A DNA stretch of 64,000 nt. Origin: Emticicia aquatilis. Its GTDB lineage: Bacteria > Bacteroidota > Bacteroidia > Cytophagales > Spirosomataceae. The notes below the pieces were generated by a model. It saw nothing but the letters and a program-made list of their open reading frames with translations. It did not search any database and was not told where the DNA came from. Within the stretch, counting starts at the first letter, position 1. Every line of letters begins with the position of its first letter. Location: assembly GCF_014644295.1 (NCBI RefSeq), contig NZ_BMKK01000014.1, positions 62,001 to 126,000 of the forward strand, read 5' to 3'. A program made the position numbers and the translations under genes. Below, piece after piece: positions 23,632 to 62,403 of this stretch.

Positions 23632-25083
23632 TTACTCAACCTTACTCAACTTCACAGTATTCGTACGGTTATTATCTTGTAATGGTAAACTCAAAGTATT
23701 GATAAACAAATCTCCTTTTTGTAATTCACCTTCTGCAATCAAGAAATCTTTGATAGTATCAACCACTTGTTCAACGTTTTTGCCTTTCATTGTATCTACT
23801 ACAAAAACCTTCACGCCTGAATAAAGACTCAATTGTGTTGATAGTTTTTCGTTGTTGGTAAAGATAAACAAACTCGCTTTCGGGCGGTGGTGTGATAAAC
23901 GAACAGCCGTATAACCCGAGTTAGTAATACCAATAATAGCTTTTACTTTCAAGTCACGAGCCAAACGACAAGCCGTCATTACCACGTTATCGTTTTCTTT
24001 CTCTTTCGACTCATAAGTATCTTCGGTTACACGTGTATGGTGACGGAAATAGAGTTTTTTCTCATCAGCCAATTCTTCCACTTTCACAATCGTGTTTACC
24101 ATTGTCTCAACTGCCAAAATCGGATATTTTCCCGATGCACTTTCGGCACTAAGCATAACTGCATCAGCTCCATCTAATACGGCATTGGCAACATCACCTA
24201 CTTCCGCACGAGTTGGGCGTGGGCTATCAATCATGCTTTCGAGCATCTGAGTTGCCACGATAACTGGCTTAGCGGCCAAATTCGACATCTCAACCAAACG
24301 CTTCTGAATCATCGGCACATCTTCTGATGGAAGTTCAACACCCAAATCGCCACGAGCAACCATAATTGCATCACTGGCGTTTACGATAGCCTCCATGTTC
24401 ACAATTGCTTCTGGTTTTTCAACCTTTGCAATTACTTTCGCAGTTTTGCCTTGTTCTTTGATATATTTCTGAATCTCTTGGATTTCTTCGGCAGTACGCA
24501 CAAACGAAAGAGCAACCCAGTCAACATCATTTGCCAAACCAAATTTCAAATCTTCCCAATCTTTATCAGTTACTGATGGCTGAGAGATATTAGTATTTGG
24601 AAGGTTTACACCTTTCTTTTGTTTCAAAAGACCACCATAAACCACTTCTGTGATTACATCGGTGCCATCTTTACCTATTACTTTTACTTCTAACTTTCCA
24701 TCATCCATCAAGATTCTCTCGCCTACCTTCACGTCGTTGTACATACCTTTGTAAGGTGTACTCACTCTTTCGGCATTACCAACGATATCGTCGCTGGCGA
24801 ATCTTAGTTGATTTCCTGCAAAAATTTCAACGCCATCATTACCGCTTTCCATCAGACCAATTCTGATTTTAGGGCCTTGCAAATCTTGCAAGATGGCACA
24901 TTTGAAGCCATGTTCTTTATTGATTTTACGAATACGGTCGATACGAGTTTGGTGGTCGGCGTGAGTTCCGTGAGAGAAGTTCAAGCGGAAAACATTTACA
25001 CCAGCTTTTGCCAATGCCAATAACATTTCTTCGCTTTCGGAAGCAGGTCCGACAGTTGCTACTATTTTGGTTTTTCTTTGCAT
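23632..25083 (-). CDS. pyk: Pyruvate kinase
   Basis: Converts phosphoenolpyruvate and ADP to pyruvate and ATP. The 483-residue protein begins MQRKTKIVATVGPASESEEML, the standard start, with NVFRLNFSHGTH near residues 30-41. The signature around the catalytic lysine is VIAKVEKPEAIVNM near 216-229, followed by MVARGDLGVELP near 241-252 and the MLESMIDSPRPTRAEV segment near 284-299. The C-terminal domain is complete. No phosphotransferase extension is present. Confidence 0.97.
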   Translation of the reverse strand: MQRKTKIVATVGPASESEEMLLALAKAGVNVFRLNFSHGTHADHQTRIDRIRKINKEHGFKCAILQDLQGPKIRIGLMESGNDGVEIFAGNQLRFASDDIVGNAERVSTPYKGMYNDVKVGERILMDDGKLEVKVIGKDGTDVITEVVYGGLLKQKKGVNLPNTNISQPSVTDKDWEDLKFGLANDVDWVALSFVRTAEEIQEIQKYIKEQGKTAKVIAKVEKPEAIVNMEAIVNASDAIMVARGDLGVELPSEDVPMIQKRLVEMSNLAAKPVIVATQMLESMIDSPRPTRAEVGDVANAVLDGADAVMLSAESASGKYPILAVETMVNTIVKVEELADEKKLYFRHHTRVTEDTYESKEKENDNVVMTACRLARDLKVKAIIGITNSGYTAVRLSHHRPKASLFIFTNNEKLSTQLSLYSGVKVFVVDTMKGKNVEQVVDTIKDFLIAEGELQKGDLFINTLSLPLQDNNRTNTVKLSKVE

Positions 25084-25372
25084 AGGTGAAATAAAATTTT
25101 TCTTCGGCTTAGGAATTGTGCAAAAATACTAACTATTGACGAGATTTACAGAATATTTAAAACAGAAAGCAGGAAGGTTTTTTGAAAAAACAATTAACAA
25201 ATTGATTATCAATAACTTAAATCTGATTATTGTTTATGTTAAATCTTTATAATAAATCAAAAAAGTACCATAAAAATCAATAGAATAGCTTTTTTGGTAG
25301 TAAATCGCTTAAAGTCAAACTTAGAAAAGCCATATTCTGAGATTGACTTTTTTTGAAAAAAAAACGTTTTTT

Positions 25373-25403
25373 TTTGTGTGAAAAAAATATTTGACTAAAT
25401 TTG
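25373..25403 (+). promoter_or_regulatory. Bacteroidota-type promoter for the leuA leader
   Basis: TTTG (25373-25376), a 19-base spacer and TAAATTTG (25396-25403) match the consensus. Transcription should begin near 25410, just ahead of the leader peptide. Confidence 0.75.
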
Positions 25404-25425
25404 TATCAATAAAAAAACAAAACCA

Positions 25426-25482
25426 TTGAAACATTCGTCAATCGCAATTTCACTTCTCCTGCTACTCAGCCCGTCGGTGTGA
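25426..25482 (+). CDS. Leucine-rich leader peptide of leuA (attenuator)
   Basis: An 18-residue reading frame, MKHSSIAISLLLLLSPSV if its TTG start is used, ending at a TGA. Five consecutive leucine codons CTT CTC CTG CTA CTC occupy 25453-25467. The frame lies about 16 bases after the predicted transcription start and 23 bases before an intrinsic terminator, and leuA follows. This is the classical layout of a ribosome-mediated leucine attenuator: a ribosome stalling at the leucine run would be expected to change folding of the downstream RNA. The TTG start and the antiterminator fold are inferred; an AGCCC at 25468-25472 could compete for the GGGCT of the terminator arm. Confidence 0.75.
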   Translation: MKHSSIAISLLLLLSPSV

Positions 25483-25505
25483 GAAATGGAGATTTTGTAT
25501 ATACG

Positions 25506-25542
25506 AAAGCCCTTTCTTATCAACGTAAGAAAGGGCTTTTTT
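25506..25542 (+). terminator. Intrinsic terminator acting as leuA attenuator
   Basis: A perfect 14-base stem (AAAGCCCTTTCTTA with TAAGAAAGGGCTTT), a 6-base loop TCAACG and a T6 run, placed between the leader peptide and leuA with no gene ending upstream on this strand. Its position makes sense only as a regulated terminator. Confidence 0.85.
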
Positions 25543-25594
25543 GTGAAAACAGATTGACAAGATTCTTACTTAACCAATATAAATCTCATCAGAA

Positions 25595-26737
25595 ATGAGC
25601 GATAAAATTTATGTTTTTGACACTACTTTGCGAGATGGCGAGCAAGTACCGGGTTGTCAGTTAACGACTGACGAAAAAGTAATGATTGCTAAAGAACTCG
25701 AAAAGCTGGGTGTTGATATCATCGAAGCAGGATTTCCAGTATCGAGTCCTGGCGATTTTCGTTCGGTTGTGGAGGTTTCTAAAGCCGTTACCGAGCCAAC
25801 AGTTTGTGCGTTGTCACGTGCCGTAAAAGGCGATATTGATTCCGCTGGCGAAGCTCTGAAATTTGCGAAACGTCCTCGTATTCATACAGGAATCGGTGCA
25901 TCTGATATTCATATCAAACATAAATTTAATAGTAGCCGTGAAGCAATTATTGAGCAAGCGATTGATGCCGTAAAACACGCCAGAAACTTGGTTGATGATG
26001 TTGAGTTTTATGCCGAAGATGCTGGCCGTGCCGATTTAGAGTTTTTGGCTCGTCTGACCGAAAGTGTTATCAAAGCAGGTGCTACGGTTGTGAATTTACC
26101 TGATACAACAGGTTATGTTTTGCCGAACGATATGTATGACCGCATCAATTATTTGATGAATAACGTACCAAATGTTGATAAAGCCATTCTTTCGATGCAC
26201 AATCATAATGATTTGGGTATGGCAACTGCCAATACAATTGCAGGAATCAGAGCGGGAGCAAGACAAGTGGAGGTGACAATCAATGGTATTGGAGAAAGAG
26301 CTGGAAATACTTCTTTGGAAGAAGTAGCAATGATTTTGAAAGTACACAAATCGCTTGGCTACCACACCGACATCGACAGCACGAAGCTATTCCCGATGAG
26401 TAATTTGGTTTCTCAGACCATGAGAATGCAAGTTCAAGCCAATAAGGCAATCGTTGGTCGTAATGCTTTTGCACACTCGTCGGGTATCCACCAAGATGGT
26501 TTCTTGAAACACACCGATACTTACGAAATCATTAATCCACAGGAAGTTGGTGTACCAAAATCTTCAATTGTTTTGACGGCTCGTAGTGGTCGCCACGCAT
26601 TGAAACACCGCCTCGAAATGTTGGGCTATAAACTCGAAAAACCTTTGTTAGATGATACATACAAGCGTTTCCTTGACTTAGCCGACCAAATCAAAGAAGT
26701 AAATGATAAGGATTTGGTGAAGTTAATGAGAGCGTAG
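25595..26737 (+). CDS. leuA: 2-isopropylmalate synthase, short form without regulatory domain
   Basis: Condenses acetyl-CoA with 2-oxoisovalerate in the first committed step of leucine synthesis. [12 protein letters not shown] at residues 9-20 is the HMGL-like active-site start, and [16 protein letters not shown] near 199-214 holds the metal-binding Hx[14 protein letters not shown] near 231-243 is the second signature. At 380 residues it ends soon after the catalytic barrel and subdomain, and the C-terminal LeuA dimer domain that binds leucine in 500-residue forms is missing. The leader peptide and terminator in front give another way to sense leucine. A close relative such as homocitrate or citramalate synthase is less likely because of the leucine leader. 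Confidence 0.88.
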
Positions 26738-26821: not shown

Positions 26822-29707
26822 TTAAATCAACGCTTCATACAAAATCTCGGCTGGGTGTTGGGCTATTCGGCCCGTTCCGTCTTTTATTTGGTGACGACAG
26901 CTTGTGCCTGGAGCGGCAATTATTACATCTTCAGCTTGTTTTCTGACGGTCGGAAAAAGCACCAACTCTCCTACTTTCATTGATACTTCATAATGCTCGG
27001 CTTCATAACCAAATGAACCAGCCATTCCGCAGCAACCCGATGGAATGAGATGAACCTCATAATTTGCTGGTAAAGACAAACTTTTCTTGGTAGGCGTAAG
27101 CGAAGATAAAGCTTTTTGGTGGCAATGTCCGTGTAGTTTTATCAAACGTTTTTCGCTCGAAAATGCTTCTCTTTTGATATTTCCTCGGTCGATTTCTCGG
27201 GCAAACCATTCATCAAATTGAAAAGTGTTTTTAGCGATTTTTTCGGCAGAATCTCTTAAATCTTGCGGAACAAGTTCAAGATATTCATCTCTCAAAGTCA
27301 AAATTGCCGATGGCTCGAGTCCGATGATTGGTGTATTATCCGATACAATATCTTTTAGCAATTCAACATTTTTTATAGCGATTTTCTGAGCTTCACGCAC
27401 CATTCCTTTTGATAAATACGTGCGTCCACTTTCTACATGGTTTGGCATAATGACCTCATAACGAAGCCTTTGTAGTAATAAAATCGCTTTTTTACCTACT
27501 TCTACATCATTATAATTCGTAAATTCATCGCAGAATAGATAAACCTTTTTATCGTTTTTGGGGGAAGGTTGCTTGCCAAACCATTCTTTCAATGTCGTGC
27601 TATGCAATAACGGCATTGTACGGTCAGGATGAAAACCTACGATTCGATTAGCGATTCGGCGAGTGGCTTCGGTTTTGAAAATGAAATTATATGCCCACGG
27701 AGCAATCGAGGCCAGCTTCATTTGTTTGGTAAAAGTCCCTATTAACTTCGAGCGGAACGGAATTCCTTTTGTATCATAAGTTTTCTGCAAAAACTCTGCT
27801 TTCATCTTGCCCACATCCACACTCGACGGACATTCTGACTTACAGCCTTTACACGACAAACACAAATCAAGCACTTCTTTTACACTTTCTTGTGTAATTG
27901 CTTGCTCGTTGGTATAATATTGCCTTAAAACATTTGCTCTGGCACGAGTCGTGTCTTTTTCGCTGCGAGTAGCCATGTAGCTCGGACACATTGTACCGCC
28001 TGTGATTTCGGTTTTGCGGCAATCGCCTGAACCGCTACATTTTTCGGTTAAGCGTAAAATGCTTTCTTGCTTCGAGAAATCAAAAATTGTTTGGTGTTTG
28101 GGCGTTGGTTGGTCGGCTTCGTAACGCAAAAACTCATTCATTGGCGGCGAATCAATGATTTTCCCTTGGTTGAAAATGCCTTTTGCGTCAAATATTTGCT
28201 TTACTTCTCTGAAAAGTGCGTAGTTTTTTTCACCCATCATATACGGAATGAATTCGCCACGCAGACGTCCATCTCCGTGTTCACCCGAGAGTGAGCCGCC
28301 GTATTTTTTCACCAAAACTGCCGTTTCGGCCAAAATTGTTCGGAAAAGTTGTCGGCCTTCGGTGGTTTTCAGATTAACCATCGGCTCTACGTGCAGCTCG
28401 CCCGCCCCTGCATGGGCATACATTGAATATTGTACATTGAGTTTTTTTAGTAAAACCTCTAAATCTTCGATGTATGCAGGCAAATCTTGTGGGTCAACGG
28501 CACAGTCTTCAATTAAGTTTACGCACTGAGTATCTCCTTCAAGGTTGCGAAGTAAACCTAAACCCCCTTTTCGCACTTCCCATGCCTTTTTAGAGTCATC
28601 ACCGAGCAAGATTGGGTGAGCATAACCCAGATTTTTTTCTTTGAGAGCTTTTATTAAATTTTCGGCTTTTTGCAGTAGTCCTTCTTTGGTTTCATCGAAA
28701 AATTCAACCATCAAAATAGCTTTAGGCTCACCTTCGATGAAAAATCTATTTTTCGACTGCTCAATATTGGTTTTTGTAAATTCCAGAATAAAATCATCGA
28801 CCAACTCGGAAGCTGAGCAATTATGTTCAAGAGCCACAAGATTGGCCAAAAGCGACTCATTGAGCGTATGAGTATGCACGGCCACCATTCCTACTTCTTT
28901 CGGAGGTATGTCGAAAAGTTTCAGTTTTGCTTCAGTAACAAAGCAAAGCGTACCTTCCGAACCTGCAATTAGTTTAGATAAATTCAGTAGCTCAACATTC
29001 AGTAAGGCATCTAAAGCATAACCTGTATTTCGGCGTTTTACGTTGGCTTTCGGAAAACCCTCTTTTATGGCCGTTTGATTTTCAGGATTGTTGATGAGTT
29101 TATCAAGACTTTGATAAATTTTGCCTTCAAGGGTTTCCAATTTACATTTTTCTTGAAAAGATTTTTGGTCTAAATCGCTGAAAACAACCTCGCTACCATC
29201 TGATAATAAAGCTTTTACCTCCAAAAGATTATCACGGGTTGCTCCCCAAATAATTGAGTGAAGTCCGCACGAATTATTGCCAATCATGCCTCCAATCATG
29301 GCTCGGCTCGATGTCGAGGTTTCGGGACCAAACATTAGGCCGTAGGGTTTCAGATAAGCGTTGAGGTCGTCACGAATGACACCTGGCTGCACTCTTACCC
29401 ATTTTTCGGCTTGACTTACTTCGAGGATATTGATGAAGTTTTTTGAAATATCAACCACCAATCCTTTTCCAACAACCTGCCCAGCCAGTGATGTACCCGC
29501 AGCACGAGGAATAAGTGTAATTTGCTCATTATCAGCAAACTTAATGAGTTTTTTTATATCATTTACAGTCTTGGGAATGGCCACCGCCAACGGTTCTTCC
29601 TGATAAACCGAGGCATCGGTCGAATAGACTTTCTTTAGGGCTTTGTCGGTAGTGGTATTTTTGAAGTAAAGTTCGCCTTCAAATTCGCTCTGCAACGCAT
29701 CAAACAT
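26822..29707 (-). CDS. FAD-binding and Fe-S oxidoreductase fusion (D-lactate/glycolate dehydrogenase type)
   Basis: A 961-residue fusion. Residues of about 40-240 form an FAD_binding_4 domain (PRAAGTSLAGQVVGKGLVVD near 63-82, then IGGMIGNNSCGLHSI near 138-152), followed by the FAD-oxidase C-terminal domain up to about 520 (HAGAGELHVEP). A ferredoxin-like part follows with CSGSGDCRKTEITGGTMC and CLSCKGCKSECP, then two cysteine-rich CCG-type halves, the second with LHGHCHQKAL and IPSGCCGMAGSFG. Such proteins oxidise 2-hydroxy acids such as D-lactate or D-2-hydroxyglutarate and pass electrons to the quinone pool. The exact substrate is not resolved. It has no signal peptide. The 14-bp palindrome at 29805 lies upstream and could be its operator. 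Confidence 0.88.
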   Translation of the reverse strand: MFDALQSEFEGELYFKNTTTDKALKKVYSTDASVYQEEPLAVAIPKTVNDIKKLIKFADNEQITLIPRAAGTSLAGQVVGKGLVVDISKNFINILEVSQAEKWVRVQPGVIRDDLNAYLKPYGLMFGPETSTSSRAMIGGMIGNNSCGLHSIIWGATRDNLLEVKALLSDGSEVVFSDLDQKSFQEKCKLETLEGKIYQSLDKLINNPENQTAIKEGFPKANVKRRNTGYALDALLNVELLNLSKLIAGSEGTLCFVTEAKLKLFDIPPKEVGMVAVHTHTLNESLLANLVALEHNCSASELVDDFILEFTKTNIEQSKNRFFIEGEPKAILMVEFFDETKEGLLQKAENLIKALKEKNLGYAHPILLGDDSKKAWEVRKGGLGLLRNLEGDTQCVNLIEDCAVDPQDLPAYIEDLEVLLKKLNVQYSMYAHAGAGELHVEPMVNLKTTEGRQLFRTILAETAVLVKKYGGSLSGEHGDGRLRGEFIPYMMGEKNYALFREVKQIFDAKGIFNQGKIIDSPPMNEFLRYEADQPTPKHQTIFDFSKQESILRLTEKCSGSGDCRKTEITGGTMCPSYMATRSEKDTTRARANVLRQYYTNEQAITQESVKEVLDLCLSCKGCKSECPSSVDVGKMKAEFLQKTYDTKGIPFRSKLIGTFTKQMKLASIAPWAYNFIFKTEATRRIANRIVGFHPDRTMPLLHSTTLKEWFGKQPSPKNDKKVYLFCDEFTNYNDVEVGKKAILLLQRLRYEVIMPNHVESGRTYLSKGMVREAQKIAIKNVELLKDIVSDNTPIIGLEPSAILTLRDEYLELVPQDLRDSAEKIAKNTFQFDEWFAREIDRGNIKREAFSSEKRLIKLHGHCHQKALSSLTPTKKSLSLPANYEVHLIPSGCCGMAGSFGYEAEHYEVSMKVGELVLFPTVRKQAEDVIIAAPGTSCRHQIKDGTGRIAQHPAEILYEALI

Positions 29708-31699: not shown

Positions 31700-31765
31700 T
31701 TGTATTTTTTTAATGTTATATCTATTTCATATATTTGTCTAAAAGCAATAAAAGTTAAAATAATA

Positions 31766-33028
31766 ATGGAGATTAGAGAACAAATATCAATTGATGAATT
31801 TGATGGAAAAAAATTCAAGATTCGATTTGTAGAGGCAGAAGATAATAGAAAAGCAATTATAACACACTATCTACGAAATATACATAATGGCGTAAAAAAG
31901 CATTACGAACAAGAGGCAAAGGCTTATTTAAAAGATATTATAACATATAAAAACCAAGAAGAAAATATCAATATTGCCTCTGAGGAAGCATTACAACAAC
32001 TTCTTTTTGAAGTCGAAAACGTACCATTTCCAACGCCTCAAAATTACACTTTTAAATTTATTGATTTATTTGCTGGAATTGGAGGTTTTAGATTAGCTCT
32101 CCAAAACTTGGGAGGAAAATGTGTATTCACTTCTGAATGGGATAAGTATGCACAAATCACATATAAAGCCAATTTTGGAGAAGTTCCTTTTGGAGATATA
32201 ACTAAGGAAAGTACGAAAAAATATATTCCTGATAACTTTGATGTTTTATGTGGCGGGTTTCCATGCCAGCCATTCTCTCATGCAGGCCTAAAGAAAGGAT
32301 TTGAAGATACCCGAGGAACATTATTCTTTGATGTGGCAGATATTCTTAATAGAAGAAAAGAAAAGGGTAATCCTGTTAAAATTGTGTTTTTAGAAAACGT
32401 CAAAGGATTAAAAAACCACGACAAAGGCAATACTTTGAAAACAATTTTATCAACCTTAAATGAATTAGGGTATGAAGTAGCAACTGAAGTATTGAACTCA
32501 AAAAACTTTGGAGTACCTCAAAATAGAGAAAGAATTTTCATAGTAGGTTGGTTAAAAGAAATCAATCGAAATTTTAAGTTTCCTTTAGGTAAAGATACGA
32601 ATGGCGGCACTATTTTCGAGGTTGAACATCTAAACCAAGTAAAAGCGACTAAAGTAAAAGACATCTTAATAGAAGACCCTGAGCCTAAATATACGATTTC
32701 CGACAAATTATATGCTGGACATTTAAGAAGACGGAAAGAACATAAGGAAAAAGGTAATGGGTTCGGTTTTTCATTATTCAATGAAAATTCCGCTTATACC
32801 AGTACAATATCAGCAAGATATTACAAAGATGGTAGTGAAATTTTAATAGAACAGCCTAATGCTAATCCACGAAAATTAACGACAAGAGAGGCGGCAAATT
32901 TACAGGGATACGACCCCAAATTTATTATTCCTGTATCTGACGTTCAAGCATATAAACAATTTGGTAACAGTGTATCTGTCCCTGTAATCCAAGCAATTTT
33001 TCACGAAATTCAAAAACAACTTTTGTAA
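31766..33028 (+). CDS. DNA (cytosine-5)-methyltransferase of a restriction-modification system
   Basis: A 420-residue C5-cytosine methyltransferase. Motif I FIDLFAGIGGFRLAL lies near residues 99-113, motif IV with the catalytic cysteine GGFPCQPFSHAG near 164-175, motif VI ENVKGL near 209, motif VIII QNRERIFIVG near 251 and motif X GNSVSVPVIQA near 399. The target-recognition region is short. About 95 residues precede motif I; they are charged and helical (NRKAIITHYLRNIHNGVKKH) and unlike the short N-termini of Dcm enzymes. The ATG at 31766 is chosen over an upstream TTG at 31700 because the intervening codons are low-complexity. It is 4 bases ahead of the McrB-like gene, so modification and restriction genes form one operon. 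Confidence 0.93.
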   Translation: MEIREQISIDEFDGKKFKIRFVEAEDNRKAIITHYLRNIHNGVKKHYEQEAKAYLKDIITYKNQEENINIASEEALQQLLFEVENVPFPTPQNYTFKFIDLFAGIGGFRLALQNLGGKCVFTSEWDKYAQITYKANFGEVPFGDITKESTKKYIPDNFDVLCGGFPCQPFSHAGLKKGFEDTRGTLFFDVADILNRRKEKGNPVKIVFLENVKGLKNHDKGNTLKTILSTLNELGYEVATEVLNSKNFGVPQNRERIFIVGWLKEINRNFKFPLGKDTNGGTIFEVEHLNQVKATKVKDILIEDPEPKYTISDKLYAGHLRRRKEHKEKGNGFGFSLFNENSAYTSTISARYYKDGSEILIEQPNANPRKLTTREAANLQGYDPKFIIPVSDVQAYKQFGNSVSVPVIQAIFHEIQKQLL

Positions 33029-33032
33029 ACGT

Positions 33033-35069
33033 ATGTTAGAAGATTTAGGACTTTTAGCTCTTGAGGCACAAAAAAAATGTAAAGAATATGATAAAAGAGA
33101 TATTGTTTTATCGGATGCCTTTAAAAAGGCATTTAAGGATAGTATGACTTCTTATGAAATCACATTCGGCCAATATACAACCATATTTACAAGCAAAAAC
33201 GAATTAGTGATAATTGCACCTAATCAGTGGTTTATAATTGCTTCTTATTTTTCAAAATTCCTCTCTCAATTATTAGTCTATAAAAAATGGGTTACTGATT
33301 TAAGCCTAAACAGTGAGATTAAAACTATTCGAGAAACTCGTCAAATAGATGCAAGTACTCATGCAATCATCAGTAAAAAGTTTGACGTTGATGATATTGA
33401 AAAATTCAAACGGTTTTTAACCGATTATGACTGGTGGGCTGGTAGCAAAACTATTGATAGAGGAGATTTTTTTGTATCAGCAGTCCTTAGTTCAGCAGGT
33501 GTGATTAATGATAGTCAATCATATATCGCACAACTTGCTTTGCATTTATGCAATCACCAAAATCTAATCGAAATCTTACAACAAGATTTAAATATCCATT
33601 CAAAAGCCCCACTAAAAACAGATGAGGTAATTATAAGCTCTCCTATACTCAAACAAATCATTTTCGATACATTCAAGTATATCTTAATTGAGTTTGGAGA
33701 AAACGTCATTTTAGAAAATCAAACAATCAAAGACAACAAAATAGAAGACAGAGCATTTAAAGGTATATCATTGCCTAAATTCTTTGGGACTGATTATATA
33801 ATTGGGATGTTTAATAATGCACAAACCCCTGATTTACTAAAGTCAAGCGATACAATTAGATTCTTTAGCAATAATATTACAGTTCTTAATAATGAACATT
33901 CCTACTTTACAACACAGTGGAGTGCAGAGGGTGAAGGAAGAGGGCGTACACTTGTAAACTTCAATAATTATTTAGATAATATTTCAAACTCAACCTTAGA
34001 GATTGTTAAGGAAGAAGATATATTTAGATTAATAAGAAAAACCACTCAAATTTATAGTAATCCCTCATCAAAAAGACTCCCCCCTCAGAATACTATCTAT
34101 TATGGTGCTCCTGGTACTGGTAAGTCATACAAGGTAAATGAGATTTTGAAGAATCTTGACACAAAATTTTATGAAAGAATAACATTTCATCCCGAATATG
34201 ACCATGCTTTATTTGTAGGTGGATATAAACCTATTACAGTACCAGTTAAGTATAAAGATGATAATCAAGAAGTATATACAGAAGATGAGGTAAAATACAG
34301 ATTTGTCCCTCAAGCATTTACAAACATTTATGTTAGAGCTTGGAAAGACCTTGAGAACCAGTATTATTTAGCCATTGAGGAGATAAATAGAGGAAACTGT
34401 GCAGAAATATTTGGAGACATATTCCAGTTATTAGATAGACATAGTAATTACACGGTTTCTCCATCGGAAGAACTTAAAGAATATTTAATTAAAGCCCTTG
34501 GTTTAAGCCATGAAGGAATAACAAATGGACTAAAATTACCTCCAAATCTTAGTTTGCTGGCTACAATGAATACTTCTGACCAATCACTATTTCCTATGGA
34601 TAGTGCTTTTAGAAGAAGATGGGATTGGGATTATATACCTATTTGCTATGATGAAAATGAAGAAAATAAATCATCAACATACATTGTTAAAATAGACGAA
34701 AATCGTTCTTTTAAATGGTTAGATTTTATCAAAACTGTTAATTTAAAGATTAAGCAGAATGATAATTTAGGCATGGATAAATGTATTGGAAACTACTTTA
34801 TCAAACCGTCACAAGACGAAATTACATTGAAAGAATTCATTAATAAGGCTATATTTTATCTGTGGAATGATGTTTTCAAAGATGAGGAGGAAAGTGACTC
34901 TATTTTTCTAAAAGGTACATATTATGAAGATTTTTTTCCGATAGAAACCAACGGTTTAGATGAAATAATAAAGATTTTGACTAATTTATCAATAACTATA
35001 ACCTCAACTCTAAATTTAGATACTCTTCCACAAATAACTGAATCTAAAAAAGATGAGAGTTCTAATTGA
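33033..35069 (+). CDS. McrB/LlaJI R1-like AAA+ GTPase subunit of a restriction enzyme
   Basis: A 678-residue motor subunit. The C-terminal half is an McrB-type AAA+ domain: Walker A YYGAPGTGKSYKVN near residues 355-368, Walker B AIEEINRGNCAEIFGDIFQL near 446-465, and LLATMNTSDQSLFPMDSAFR near 510-529, whose MNTSD resembles the NTxD guanine-specificity element of McrB. The first 345 residues are of unknown fold and may bind DNA. Like McrB and LlaJI R1 it probably uses GTP hydrolysis to drive translocation. It overlaps the nuclease gene by 17 bases, which suggests translational coupling. Confidence 0.9.
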   Translation: MLEDLGLLALEAQKKCKEYDKRDIVLSDAFKKAFKDSMTSYEITFGQYTTIFTSKNELVIIAPNQWFIIASYFSKFLSQLLVYKKWVTDLSLNSEIKTIRETRQIDASTHAIISKKFDVDDIEKFKRFLTDYDWWAGSKTIDRGDFFVSAVLSSAGVINDSQSYIAQLALHLCNHQNLIEILQQDLNIHSKAPLKTDEVIISSPILKQIIFDTFKYILIEFGENVILENQTIKDNKIEDRAFKGISLPKFFGTDYIIGMFNNAQTPDLLKSSDTIRFFSNNITVLNNEHSYFTTQWSAEGEGRGRTLVNFNNYLDNISNSTLEIVKEEDIFRLIRKTTQIYSNPSSKRLPPQNTIYYGAPGTGKSYKVNEILKNLDTKFYERITFHPEYDHALFVGGYKPITVPVKYKDDNQEVYTEDEVKYRFVPQAFTNIYVRAWKDLENQYYLAIEEINRGNCAEIFGDIFQLLDRHSNYTVSPSEELKEYLIKALGLSHEGITNGLKLPPNLSLLATMNTSDQSLFPMDSAFRRRWDWDYIPICYDENEENKSSTYIVKIDENRSFKWLDFIKTVNLKIKQNDNLGMDKCIGNYFIKPSQDEITLKEFINKAIFYLWNDVFKDEEESDSIFLKGTYYEDFFPIETNGLDEIIKILTNLSITITSTLNLDTLPQITESKKDESSN

Positions 35070-36720
35070 AGGTGAAAAATATAATATTGAAGACTTAGAA
35101 GCTCTATTTGATAGCCCTAAGTTTTATATTCAAAAAGGACTTGAAGGTACTATAAATGCAGTAGGTTACTACCATTCTTTTGATAGAAACCAATTAGTTT
35201 ATATGTTGCCTAAAGTTTTCATGAAAAATGAAAAAGAAACTGTTTTTGGTGTTTCCAAAGATGTTCTTTTTGATTTGGAGCTACATTTTTCTTTCAAACA
35301 TAAAGAAGAATACCAGTGGATAAGACAACTTATTGTTTTTTTTTATAATAGTCTGAAAGAATATAAACGAAGAAATTCAGACAATATAATTATTGAAACA
35401 AATCAAAGTTTAGAACTCAATACCAATATAGGTCGAAATGAATATACTTATTTAGACTTACTGTTAACATTCGTAAACTTCTACAAAAAGAATAAAAATA
35501 CAATTTTATTTAAGCATATAGAGTTCAAGTCGAACCAAGCGAAAAAACCTAAATGGGAGAAGACTATCCGAAAATCCTTACCGTTTTTAGATTCATCTAA
35601 TACACCTATTTACTCCCAAATTACCAATAAGAAGAAAATTGTCAATAATGAGGAAGAATTAATTGTTTACTTTTTTTCAATTTTACATCACTTTAATAAA
35701 AATCACCAGTTACAGCTAAAGATAGACTCAAGTTATAATATCGTTGAGGGTACAGTATTTGCAAAACTACAAAAGACTGGACTATCAAAGCTTCGCAAAA
35801 TCAAACATCGTTATTTTTCGGATACTTTAAAGAAAATGTTTCGTCTCTGTGAGATATACTTTCAACAAACAGATACAAGTAGTATAAAAAAGAAAAAAGA
35901 AGAGTTTATATCCGTAAAGAATTATAACATTGTATTTGAAGATATGGTGGATAAATTATTTTCTGATAAATTAGACTCGCCAAAGGATGGTATTTCTTTA
36001 AATGATTTAAAAAACAATAATGATGGGAAAATTATCGACCATATTTATGAAGACCAATCTTTAATAGATACTTCAAATATCTTCTTCATTGGTGACTCTA
36101 AGTATTATAAATCCAACTCCGAGGCGGGTAAACTATCAAAATATAAGCAGTTTACTTATGCTAAAAATGTCATTCAGTTCAACATTGATTTATTAAATAA
36201 AGGAGAAGTATATAAAGAAAACATTCGGTATAGAGACGAAATAACTGAGGGTTATAACCTGACACCTAATTTTTTTATCTACGGCTATATAGAGGATGTT
36301 AATGACTTTGATAATCCAAATTTAACTCAACATACAGAACTACCTATTAAATCTTTTCATTTTGAAGATAGATTATTTGATAGAGATACTCTATTTGTAC
36401 ACCAATACAAAATGAATTTTTTATTTATTTTAAAAGCGTATTCAACTTTTAATCAATATACTATTACCGAATTTAGAGATAAAGCCCAAAGAGATTTTAG
36501 GAGACAATTTATTAATTTCTTTAATGACGCAACCAAATCAAGATTTACAATTTATGAAAAAGAATTAATCAAGGAAGAGGCTGAAAAATTTGTAAATGCT
36601 AACTTTAAAGTTCTAAATGGTAAATGCTTTTATACAAATGATGGTAAATTGTTAATTGCTAAGTATTTTAATGATACAATTCCTTTACAAACAGGTTTTG
36701 AAATTAAAGAATTGATGTAA
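35053..36720 (+). CDS. McrC/LlaJI R2-like nuclease subunit
   Basis: A 555-residue protein that resembles the LlaJI restriction endonuclease/McrC group. The N-terminal part (ISxE-like VGYYHSFDRNQLVYMLPKVF near residues 36-55) and a long helical middle precede a PD-(D/E)XK core: GKIIDHIYEDQSL near 325-337 and FFIGDSKYYKS near 343-353 (Asp, then Asp-Ser-Lys), followed by a helix with QFTYAKN near 363-369. It would cut DNA when bound by the GTPase subunit. It lies last in the operon. The specificity is unknown, and subfamily placement rests on motif and gene-order likeness only. Confidence 0.85.
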   Translation: MRVLIEGEKYNIEDLEALFDSPKFYIQKGLEGTINAVGYYHSFDRNQLVYMLPKVFMKNEKETVFGVSKDVLFDLELHFSFKHKEEYQWIRQLIVFFYNSLKEYKRRNSDNIIIETNQSLELNTNIGRNEYTYLDLLLTFVNFYKKNKNTILFKHIEFKSNQAKKPKWEKTIRKSLPFLDSSNTPIYSQITNKKKIVNNEEELIVYFFSILHHFNKNHQLQLKIDSSYNIVEGTVFAKLQKTGLSKLRKIKHRYFSDTLKKMFRLCEIYFQQTDTSSIKKKKEEFISVKNYNIVFEDMVDKLFSDKLDSPKDGISLNDLKNNNDGKIIDHIYEDQSLIDTSNIFFIGDSKYYKSNSEAGKLSKYKQFTYAKNVIQFNIDLLNKGEVYKENIRYRDEITEGYNLTPNFFIYGYIEDVNDFDNPNLTQHTELPIKSFHFEDRLFDRDTLFVHQYKMNFLFILKAYSTFNQYTITEFRDKAQRDFRRQFINFFNDATKSRFTIYEKELIKEEAEKFVNANFKVLNGKCFYTNDGKLLIAKYFNDTIPLQTGFEIKELM

Positions 36721-60951: not shown

Positions 60952-62403
60952 CTAATCTCCAAATGCCTCTTTCAGTACTTCTTTATCATCGAAATGATGC
61001 TTTATGCCTTTTATTTCTTGGTAGGTTTCGTGGCCTTTTCCTGCTACCAAAATAATATCTTCGGGCTTTGCCATTTTTACAGCCGCTAAAATTGCTTCGT
61101 GACGGTCTTCGATAGTTTGGGTTTTCTTGAAATGAATGGCAGGTACGCCTTTTTGCATTTCGGCCAGAATATCCAACGGCTCTTCGTTTCTTGGATTATC
61201 CGATGTCAGAATTACCTTATCGCTCATTTTACAAGCTATTTCGGCCATAATCGGGCGTTTGGTTGCATCACGATTTCCGCCACAACCCACAACTGTAATG
61301 ATTTGTTGATTTCCTTCTCGTAAATCAACGATGGTTTCCAATACATTTTTCAAGGCATCGGGTGTGTGGGCGTAATCAACGATTCCGACAATATTATTTT
61401 TAGAAACTACTTGCTCGAAACGCCCCGCAGGTGGCTGAATATCAGAGAGTTGCATCAAAACTTCATCTGAATCTTCGCCGAGTAAAACCGCCGCACCATA
61501 AACACCGAGTAAATTATAAGCATTGAATGAGCCGATGAGTTTGAACCAAACTTCTTTGTTATCAATCTCCATTTGTAGCCCAAACAAACTGCAAGCCAAC
61601 ACCTTTCCTTTGAAAGTACCAATGTTTTTGAGTGAATACGTTTCTTTTCTTGCCGCCGTATTTTGGAGCATTATTTTGCCATTCTTATCATCGGTATTTA
61701 CCAACGCAAAAGCCGACGCAGGAAGTTGGTCGAAGAAGCCTTTTTTTGCTTTTAGATAATTATCGAATGTTCCGTGAAAATCAAGGTGGTCGTGCGTAAT
61801 GTTGGTAAAGATACCGCCTACAAAGTGAAGTCCAGCGATACGCTCTTGCACTACCGAGTGCGAACTCACTTCCATGAAGCAATAGGTCACGCCTTTTTGG
61901 TACATATCGGCCAATAATTCATTGATTTTTACCGAATCAGGCGTTGTGTGCGTCGAAGGAATTATATCATCATCTATCTGATTTTGCACCGTAGAAAGCA
62001 AGCCACAACGATAACCCAATCGGCGGAAAAGTCTAAAAAGTAGCGTGGCTATCGAAGTTTTGCCGTTTGTGCCTGTAACACCTACTAATTTGAGTTTTTT
62101 AGATGGATGTTGGTAGAAATTTGCCGCTGCAAAACCCATCGCACGAGCCGAGTTTTCAACTTGAATGTAAGTAATTGCCTCATTTAGAGTTTCGGGTAAA
62201 TGTTCACACAAGATTGCCGAAGCTCCCAAATCAATGGCTTTGCCGATAAATTGATGCCCATCAACTTGCGTACCACCGATAGCCACAAAAAGGCTACCTT
62301 TTTCTACCTGACGAGAGTCGAAAACTATCTTATTTATTTCAATATCTGTTTTTCCAGAAACTGCTTGGAGAGAAATTTTATACAGAATTTCGCTTAATAT
62401 CAT
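60952..62403 (-). CDS. murE: UDP-N-acetylmuramoyl-tripeptide synthetase (meso-DAP type)
   Basis: Adds meso-diaminopimelate to UDP-MurNAc-L-Ala-D-Glu in peptidoglycan synthesis. The 483-residue protein has the ATP loop LVGVTGTNGKTSIATLLFRL near residues 107-126, the ITHDHLDFHGTFDNYLKAKK segment near 203-222 (with the carbamylated lysine nearby), and the diagnostic DNPRNEEPLDIL near 399-410 that marks the DAP-adding enzyme. The Rossmann C-terminal domain is complete. Ligases of the mur pathway usually cluster, but no other mur gene is within the window. Confidence 0.96.
   Translation of the reverse strand: MILSEILYKISLQAVSGKTDIEINKIVFDSRQVEKGSLFVAIGGTQVDGHQFIGKAIDLGASAILCEHLPETLNEAITYIQVENSARAMGFAAANFYQHPSKKLKLVGVTGTNGKTSIATLLFRLFRRLGYRCGLLSTVQNQIDDDIIPSTHTTPDSVKINELLADMYQKGVTYCFMEVSSHSVVQERIAGLHFVGGIFTNITHDHLDFHGTFDNYLKAKKGFFDQLPASAFALVNTDDKNGKIMLQNTAARKETYSLKNIGTFKGKVLACSLFGLQMEIDNKEVWFKLIGSFNAYNLLGVYGAAVLLGEDSDEVLMQLSDIQPPAGRFEQVVSKNNIVGIVDYAHTPDALKNVLETIVDLREGNQQIITVVGCGGNRDATKRPIMAEIACKMSDKVILTSDNPRNEEPLDILAEMQKGVPAIHFKKTQTIEDRHEAILAAVKMAKPEDIILVAGKGHETYQEIKGIKHHFDDKEVLKEAFGD

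Follow-up and report, generated by a model that had tools for sequence, protein, structure and literature searches.

A predicted leader-peptide attenuator upstream of leuA in Emticicia aquatilis and related Cytophagales

The window considered here, i.e., the whole stretch of DNA analysed (64,000 nucleotides; positions 62,001 to 126,000 of contig NZ_BMKK01000014.1), belongs to the 6.75 Mb genome of Emticicia aquatilis (Spirosomataceae, Cytophagales). On its forward strand, at 25595..26737, it carries leuA, the gene of 2-isopropylmalate synthase (380 aa), recognized with NCBIfam and Pfam profiles and the list of open reading frames (ORFs) and starting with ATG at 25595. The five nearest LeuA proteins display 95–97% identity to that of the window; in the named collection, the nearest ones come from two metagenome-assembled genomes (MAGs) of Cytophagaceae (97%), Emticicia aquatica (97%), and a MAG labelled E. 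agri (95%). Direct reading of the forward strand gives the order TTTG, TAAATTTG, leader ORF, terminator, and leuA. It confirms the succession described in the earlier note, which was made from the letters alone and listed a promoter, an 18-codon leader with five leucine codons, a terminator, and leuA. The leader stop codon and leuA are 112 nt apart, with the terminator in between. The further claim that no other gene reads into the region holds for ORFs of at least 80 aa, since the nearest such ORF upstream (23632–25083, from its sequence presumably the gene of pyruvate kinase) is situated on the opposite strand and points away. The long ORF next after leuA (26822–29707) is on the opposite strand as well, so leuA is probably transcribed alone, as a single-gene transcript. 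Elsewhere in the window, at 31700–36720, a DNA cytosine methyltransferase-like ORF is followed by two ORFs resembling, by eye, a McrBC-type restriction pair.

The predicted promoter is of the Bacteroidota type: the −33 element TTTG (25373..25376, forward strand) and, 19 nt from it, the −7 element TAAATTTG (25396..25403, forward strand) correspond to the consensus TTTG/TAnnTTTG quoted for this phylum in PMC7366714. Judging from these elements, the predicted transcription start is located a few bases 3′ of TAAATTTG. A generic promoter and terminator scan listed neither this promoter nor the terminator. A sigma-70 promoter scan is unsuited to this phylum, the promoter not being of the E. coli sigma-70 type; the terminator was probably missed because its stem runs into the T run. 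Of the 66 leuA leaders collected for comparison, 52 have the motif TAnnTTTG in the 75 nt preceding them, as against approximately 3.75% of shuffled 75-nt pieces.

The leader ORF MKHSSIAISLLLLLSPSV (25426..25482, forward strand) comprises 18 codons, starts with TTG (the assignment of the start draws on its conservation), and ends with the stop codon TGA at 25480–25482. No Shine–Dalgarno sequence is evident by eye before the TTG, and the stretch upstream of it is A-rich; translation initiation in Bacteroidota proceeds mostly without Shine–Dalgarno sites. Codons 10–14 (25453..25467, forward strand) are five consecutive leucine codons, CTT CTC CTG CTA CTC, considered regulatory in view of the sequence and the pattern of synonymous changes. 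The run consists of CTN codons only; CTC, CTA, and CTG are the rarest leucine codons in the 32 long ORFs of the window (7.5, 6.9, and 4.4 per thousand, respectively; CTT, 15.9), where TTA (29) and TTG (28) are the commonest. In the nine Emticicia-type leaders of equal length, codons 11–14 encode leucine throughout, codons 12 and 13 vary synonymously, codon 10 is once an isoleucine codon, and residues 2–7 and 15–17 are variable. The locus thus possesses a short leader ORF with a conserved run of five codons for the end product, leucine.

Such an arrangement is rarely produced by chance. Among 20,000 dinucleotide shuffles of 25405–25594, a small ORF with at least five consecutive leucines appeared twice, and leader and terminator together never did; the combination of a five-leucine ORF and a terminator is unique in the whole window with both strands scanned. 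The z-score of the folding energy of the region is −4.87. At the gathering level, Rfam gave no match in the leader region, the sole match in the window being a tRNA. With E up to 5, 36 matches were obtained over 25370–25600, all far under the gathering scores: the top one was RsaJ, lying over the terminator (30.5 bits at a gathering score of 100; E 9.1e-6), and those at the chance level included Phe_leader (17.6 of 55 bits) and Thr_leader (14.9 of 55). No credible Rfam family identity of the region emerged at either the gathering or the relaxed threshold.

The conservation of this arrangement was assessed in 190 upstream regions of leuA (30 + 80 + 80), of which 167 were distinct, by searching for a terminator at most 220 nt from leuA and a leader ORF of 8–26 codons ending 10–45 nt before it. 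A terminator was detected in 68 and a leader together with a terminator in 66 of the 167 distinct regions. An earlier, stricter search (terminator at most 200 nt from leuA) had yielded 58 of 167 and missed the terminator of the window itself, the mismatch extension having run past the T run; the criteria were then loosened. Without collapsing, leader and terminator were found in 64 of the 110 regions from the genome set, representing 17 of the 31 sampled genera of the family; in the other 14 genera, no leader with a terminator was found directly before leuA. In Emticicia, nine of ten regions have both; in the tenth, the contig breaks off after 88 nt of upstream sequence. The 66 leaders start with ATG (56) or TTG (10), the latter all belonging to the Emticicia group (nine from Emticicia itself and one, L008, from a MAG of a sister genus). 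All ten TTG leaders keep the start codon, at least four consecutive leucines, and the terminator. The check in relatives proposed in the earlier note, on frame, leucine codons, terminator, and antiterminator (the last described below), hence speaks for its reading, both within the Emticicia group and across the 66 regions.

The 66 peptides listed represent the most leucine-rich candidate per locus, which is a favourable choice; for an unbiased estimate, the longest ATG ORF was taken regardless of leucine, which gave 56 ORFs from the 68 loci with a terminator. These ORFs contain 26.4% leucine, followed by asparagine (10.1%), against leucine backgrounds of 10.4% in 302 ORFs of the other strand and 13.7% in 199 ORFs from loci without a terminator. 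Some leaders of genus g5 hold few leucines, e.g., MTIYSTCRLQILNVF. Several of them (L111–L116 and others) keep a different core, approximately RLQ(K/Q)L, with few leucine codons; RNA pairing may constrain part of the sequence in g5 leaders.

The intrinsic terminator (3:4 hairpin and T6 run; 25508..25542, forward strand), supported by sequence, fold, and covariation, lies between the leader ORF and the structural gene. Its stem is formed by 12 perfect Watson–Crick pairs (25508–25519 with 25526–25537) followed by the T6 run at 25537–25542; it grows to 13 pairs with a U–G wobble and to 16 with an A–U extension into the T run. The perfect stem and the T6 of the earlier note were found again, but its stem length of 14 bases was not. 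In the alignment of 66 sequences (A1), 89.3% of the terminator cells are paired, and 7 of the 12 pairs show double-sided changes. This number of changes was reached by 4 of 500 shuffles, and the share of paired cells or the covariation score by none of them.

A structure competing with the terminator, to which the earlier note had not pointed, was found in the folds and the alignment at 25479..25520 (forward strand). In the core of this 2:3 antiterminator hairpin, UGAGAAAUGG (25480–25489), which begins with the stop codon, forms 9 of 10 possible pairs with CCCUUUCUUA (25510–25519) from the 5′ terminator arm, and an apical stem links 25493–25498 with 25503–25508. Folding was modelled for the RNA made up to 25524, the ribosome being taken to shield the transcript as far as 12 nt 3′ of the first A-site base. 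In silico, a ribosome whose A site holds leucine codon 12, 13, or 14 leaves the antiterminator at −11.3 kcal/mol; at leucine codons 10 and 11, the values are −12.6 and −12.8 kcal/mol, including a small extra hairpin. With the ribosome at the stop codon, −1.7 kcal/mol is left and segment 3 is free. In the ribosome-free state, the leader folds into a 1:2 hairpin, and its 5′ part pairs weakly with a few segment-3 bases. On the complete leader, the terminator is thermodynamically favoured in all three states folded, so the decision must be kinetic. This is usual in textbook attenuators.

In A1, 83.8% of the antiterminator cells are paired and 4 of the 10 pairs have double changes; the latter number is reached by 110 of 500 shuffles, and two slid versions have 5, while the share of paired cells and the covariation score exceed those of all shuffles and all slid versions. 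Compared with mononucleotide-shuffled segment 2, the energy of the 2:3 duplex has a negative z in 63 of 66 loci (mean −1.97). When partners were swapped among loci, the own partner was better in 39 of 66, and the covariation is weak; swapping costs little because both segments are conserved in themselves. For the RNA left free in the stalled state, the energy z against dinucleotide shuffles averages −3.14 and is below −1 in 59 of 66. On average, 9.7 segment-3 bases are then sequestered vs. 6.2 in the shuffles, so the sequestration of at least 5 nt, seen in 66 of 66, is non-discriminating, and the energy z alone discriminates. In the at-stop state, the mean drops to 2.5 bases, yet 16 of 66 loci still have at least 5. 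Collectively, the modelling indicates that a competing antiterminator exists and is conserved: in silico, its formation precludes that of the terminator and is possible only with a ribosome paused at the regulatory codons, the covariation being modest. The 1:2 hairpin predicted from the fold (25465..25483, forward strand) joins CUCA, i.e., the last leucine codon and an A, with UGAG in the stop codon region. Over A1, 67.0% of the cells of this helix are paired vs. 30–47% in slid controls and a mean of 61.6% in shuffles; its three double-change pairs are matched by 469 of 500 shuffles.

Another leader of this kind was found by eye in the same genome before ilvD (identified by TIGR00110), where the Ile/Val/Leu-rich peptide MKNNTVLVIPIILLLV is followed by a terminator (L207; G000:C6:480992-481084, reverse strand). 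A covariance model built from A1 (R1), whose training set does not include this leader, matches it at E 4.0e-7. An ilvD leader is present in five of six genomes, i.e., the own one, three other Emticicia (MSQHRVIIVLIIHLLA, MSQNKVIIVPIILLLNK, and MIYTSLVVLIIIILLV), and one g50 (MKIILIVPVLFLVTR); in the sixth, G012, ilvD (L205) features the site GCGAAATTTCGC discussed below and no leader. Thus, the gene shared by all three pathways is preceded by an Ile/Val/Leu leader, and the leucine-specific gene by a leucine-only run.

The model R1 was run on 292 Cytophagales genomes and 11 chosen genomes, and matches at E up to 0.001 were obtained in 117 of the 292. This is no count of attenuators, since 9 of 20 further matches fetched (L242–L245 and L257–L261) possess no such leader, some of them looking like ordinary gene terminators. 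The 11 leader-bearing matches are spread over five family labels (f1, f5, f14, f16, and f19). They include leaders before ilvD (L246, L249, L252, and L255) and Ile/Val/Leu-rich leaders before ilvE (L250, L251, L253, L254, and L256; e.g., MIHCVCISLLILVIIIILYFK and MKQLNSIITVVIITGPSG), which stand, with their terminators, in other Cytophagales families. The leader MQSKSLNIALLLQLLLGVV (L248) precedes leuA of another family. The leucine-containing leader MIAIQLNIWSLLLRSKS with its terminator (L247; G015:C22:65031-65123, reverse strand) lies directly before an EamA-type permease, which suggests a tie of this permease to leucine supply and its possible membership in a leucine regulon. The gene identities were confirmed with HMMs for L250, L253, L256, and L247 and by eye from sequence likeness for the others.

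The anatomy of the locus, its conservation, the mutually exclusive structures seen in silico, and the amino-acid-appropriate leaders before other branched-chain genes point to a ribosome-mediated transcription attenuator predicted to couple leuA to the supply of charged leucyl-tRNA; we assign to this reading a probability of roughly 0.93. The leucine attenuator proposed in the earlier note gains support from relatives, from the antiterminator, and from the separate ilvD leader of the same genome. Transcription would start a few bases after TAAATTTG, and the ribosome would initiate at the TTG. When leucine is short, the ribosome would stall at leucine codons 10–14, i.e., 13–27 nt before segment 2; the latter, starting from the stop codon, would then capture the 5′ terminator arm in the antiterminator, and RNA polymerase would continue into leuA. 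When leucine is ample, the ribosome at the stop codon would cover segment 2, allowing the terminator to form and transcription to end. In the absence of a ribosome, the 1:2 hairpin would compete with the antiterminator, and the terminator would form. The TTG initiation, stalling, coupling, and leucine-dependent output are what we infer from the features listed. Attenuation with Bacteroidota promoters and initiation mostly lacking Shine–Dalgarno sites would imply, for this phylum, a ribosome trailing RNA polymerase at a short distance for the first ~100 nt.

Other explanations are conceivable for parts of this picture. According to one proposal, leader genes increase the expression of downstream genes via reinitiation (PMC4833913), and the leader ORF could act by reinitiation or translational coupling to leuA, with the hairpin serving as a constitutive partial terminator lowering expression. 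This is very improbable: a strong terminator lies within the 112 nt between the stop codon and leuA, the leucine bias and the synonymous-only changes would be unneeded, the antiterminator is conserved, and the ilvD leader has matching Ile/Val/Leu codons. The chance is similarly slight that the region, up to the terminator, gives rise to a small RNA in its own right or encodes a small peptide with a function, and that leuA is served by its own promoter further down, e.g., between 25543 and 25594. The peptide is indeed hydrophobic and the terminator does precede leuA, but outside the leucine run the peptide varies, mainly its leucine content is kept across genera, and TAnnTTTG precedes the leader in the 52 of 66 loci mentioned above. 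A T-box or a leucine riboswitch sensing uncharged tRNA-Leu or leucine directly, with the ORF being incidental, would yield the same leucine-responsive antitermination in the same place before leuA, but it has almost no probability, as no covariance model of such a family matches at the gathering level in the window, no T-box is among the 36 sub-threshold matches (E up to 5) over 25370–25600, and the conserved parts are the leucine codons, the stop codon, and short pairing segments.

Along with the attenuator, many loci harbor the near-palindromic site GCGAAWWTTCGC. In 45 of the 66 leuA leaders (including L017, L021–L025, L027, L111–L116, and L124–L143), it sits just 3′ of the promoter, and the leader starts no more than 40 nt beyond it. 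Within 40 nt of the leader start, it is absent before all 10 leuA leaders of the Emticicia group; before ilvD, it is present in four of four Emticicia (L207 included), in one of them as GCGAATTTTCGC, which is not palindromic. Eight genomes contain one or two copies each of the exact palindrome GCGAAATTTCGC; seven of these genomes were picked because their leuA has the palindrome, and its mirror control does not occur in any of the eight. The 12 places of the exact palindrome are distributed as seven before leuA, two before ilvD, and three elsewhere. In the own genome, GCGAAWWTTCGC was found in four places, one before ilvD and three without an evident branched-chain gene (by eye), so the idea that the site marks branched-chain genes only was not borne out. 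GCGAAWWTTCGC may be a candidate operator for a branched-chain regulator. Among the literature matches listed for the palindrome, there was only unrelated work, judging by title, and the site is the least explained feature of the system.

The presumed role of the attenuator can be viewed against the makeup of the enzyme. The LeuA of the window scores 590 bits against NCBIfam NF002086 (cut-off 532), over the catalytic part only, and 550.9 against TIGR00973, under the cut-off of 598.7. Pfam recognizes the HMGL-like and HCS_D2 domains only; the allosteric LeuA_dimer domain was not found by Pfam in the 380-aa protein. The latter domain is present in a cimA-like paralogue, which belongs to a leuC-leuD-(cimA-like)-leuB cluster in the same genome and is named after its best NCBIfam match, scoring below the cut-off (677.9 of 950 bits). 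The enzymes of this cluster would also serve isoleucine via citramalate. Since leuCDB, adjacent to the cimA-like gene, would be shared with isoleucine synthesis, only leuA is leucine-specific, and a control point on leuA fits the pathway. Control at the level of transcription may account for more of the leucine feedback. In the own genome, no ATG ORF with at least six Ile, Leu, or Val residues was found within 350 nt upstream of leuC, leuD, and the cimA-like gene, and the same scan of leuB gave only a 28-aa ORF, with no T run close to it. No convincing leader was seen by eye in the leuC upstream regions of six genomes.

A broader scheme can be put forward tentatively, at somewhat less than even odds. 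Spirosomataceae and, in part, other Cytophagales would possess a two-layer branched-chain regulon, in which codon-graded attenuators are combined, in many genera, with GCGAAWWTTCGC as a presumed operator; ilvD and ilvE would have Ile/Val/Leu leaders, and the stand-alone leuA, whose product lacks the leucine-allosteric domain, a leucine-only one. No description of such a regulon was found among the literature matches listed. If it exists, attenuation would stand in for enzyme feedback, with initiation lacking Shine–Dalgarno sites and, in Emticicia, a conserved TTG. Apart from this scheme, leader-peptide attenuation finds a well-supported extension to the Cytophagales.

Ribosome-mediated attenuation is a textbook mechanism. 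The enterobacterial leuL/leuABCD system shares with the present locus the leader with a leucine run, a putative pause hairpin, the predicted antiterminator, and the terminator before leuA. In Emticicia, however, leuA alone is seemingly governed, the start codon is TTG, no Shine–Dalgarno sequence is evident, the promoter is of another type, and LeuA is devoid of the allosteric domain. The branched-chain attenuators of the ilvL/ivbL type are resembled by the own-genome ilvD leader MKNNTVLVIPIILLLV with its terminator, whereas the leuA leader contains a pure leucine run and only two isoleucines. Some attenuators in Bacteroidetes/Chlorobi were reportedly described by Vitreschak et al. in 2004 (FEMS Microbiol Lett). 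Among the literature matches listed, with subscription journals mostly outside coverage, no leucine attenuator was described in the Cytophagales.

For Flavobacterium psychrophilum of the same phylum, leader-peptide attenuators, i.e., the same mechanism, have been suggested upstream of amino-acid biosynthesis operons (PMC9723704). The structured 5′ elements named there include pheA and hisG, but the section on 5′ cis-regulatory RNAs has no leuA leader. The remark of the earlier note that such leaders are seldom annotated in this phylum seems fair, but the mechanism as such had already been proposed in Bacteroidota (PMC9723704). Small ORFs reminiscent of leader peptides are also mentioned for Bacteroides in PMC7366714. 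A leucine-rich attenuator peptide is described for the branched-chain genes of Staphylococcus aureus (PMC5794164); the likeness is one of description, and the system differs in belonging to a Firmicute and in also using CodY. The LEU element of Actinobacteria, as presented in PMC1262725, likewise has a leader with a run of leucine codons before leuA, but it operates with a pseudoknot or alternative hairpin in which the leucine run base pairs with the Shine–Dalgarno sequence of leuA, in contrast to the terminator/antiterminator pair of Emticicia. Overall, the Emticicia leuA leader is a new and unusually well-supported instance of a known mechanism, with the TTG start, the stand-alone leuA, and the missing allosteric domain as its local twists.
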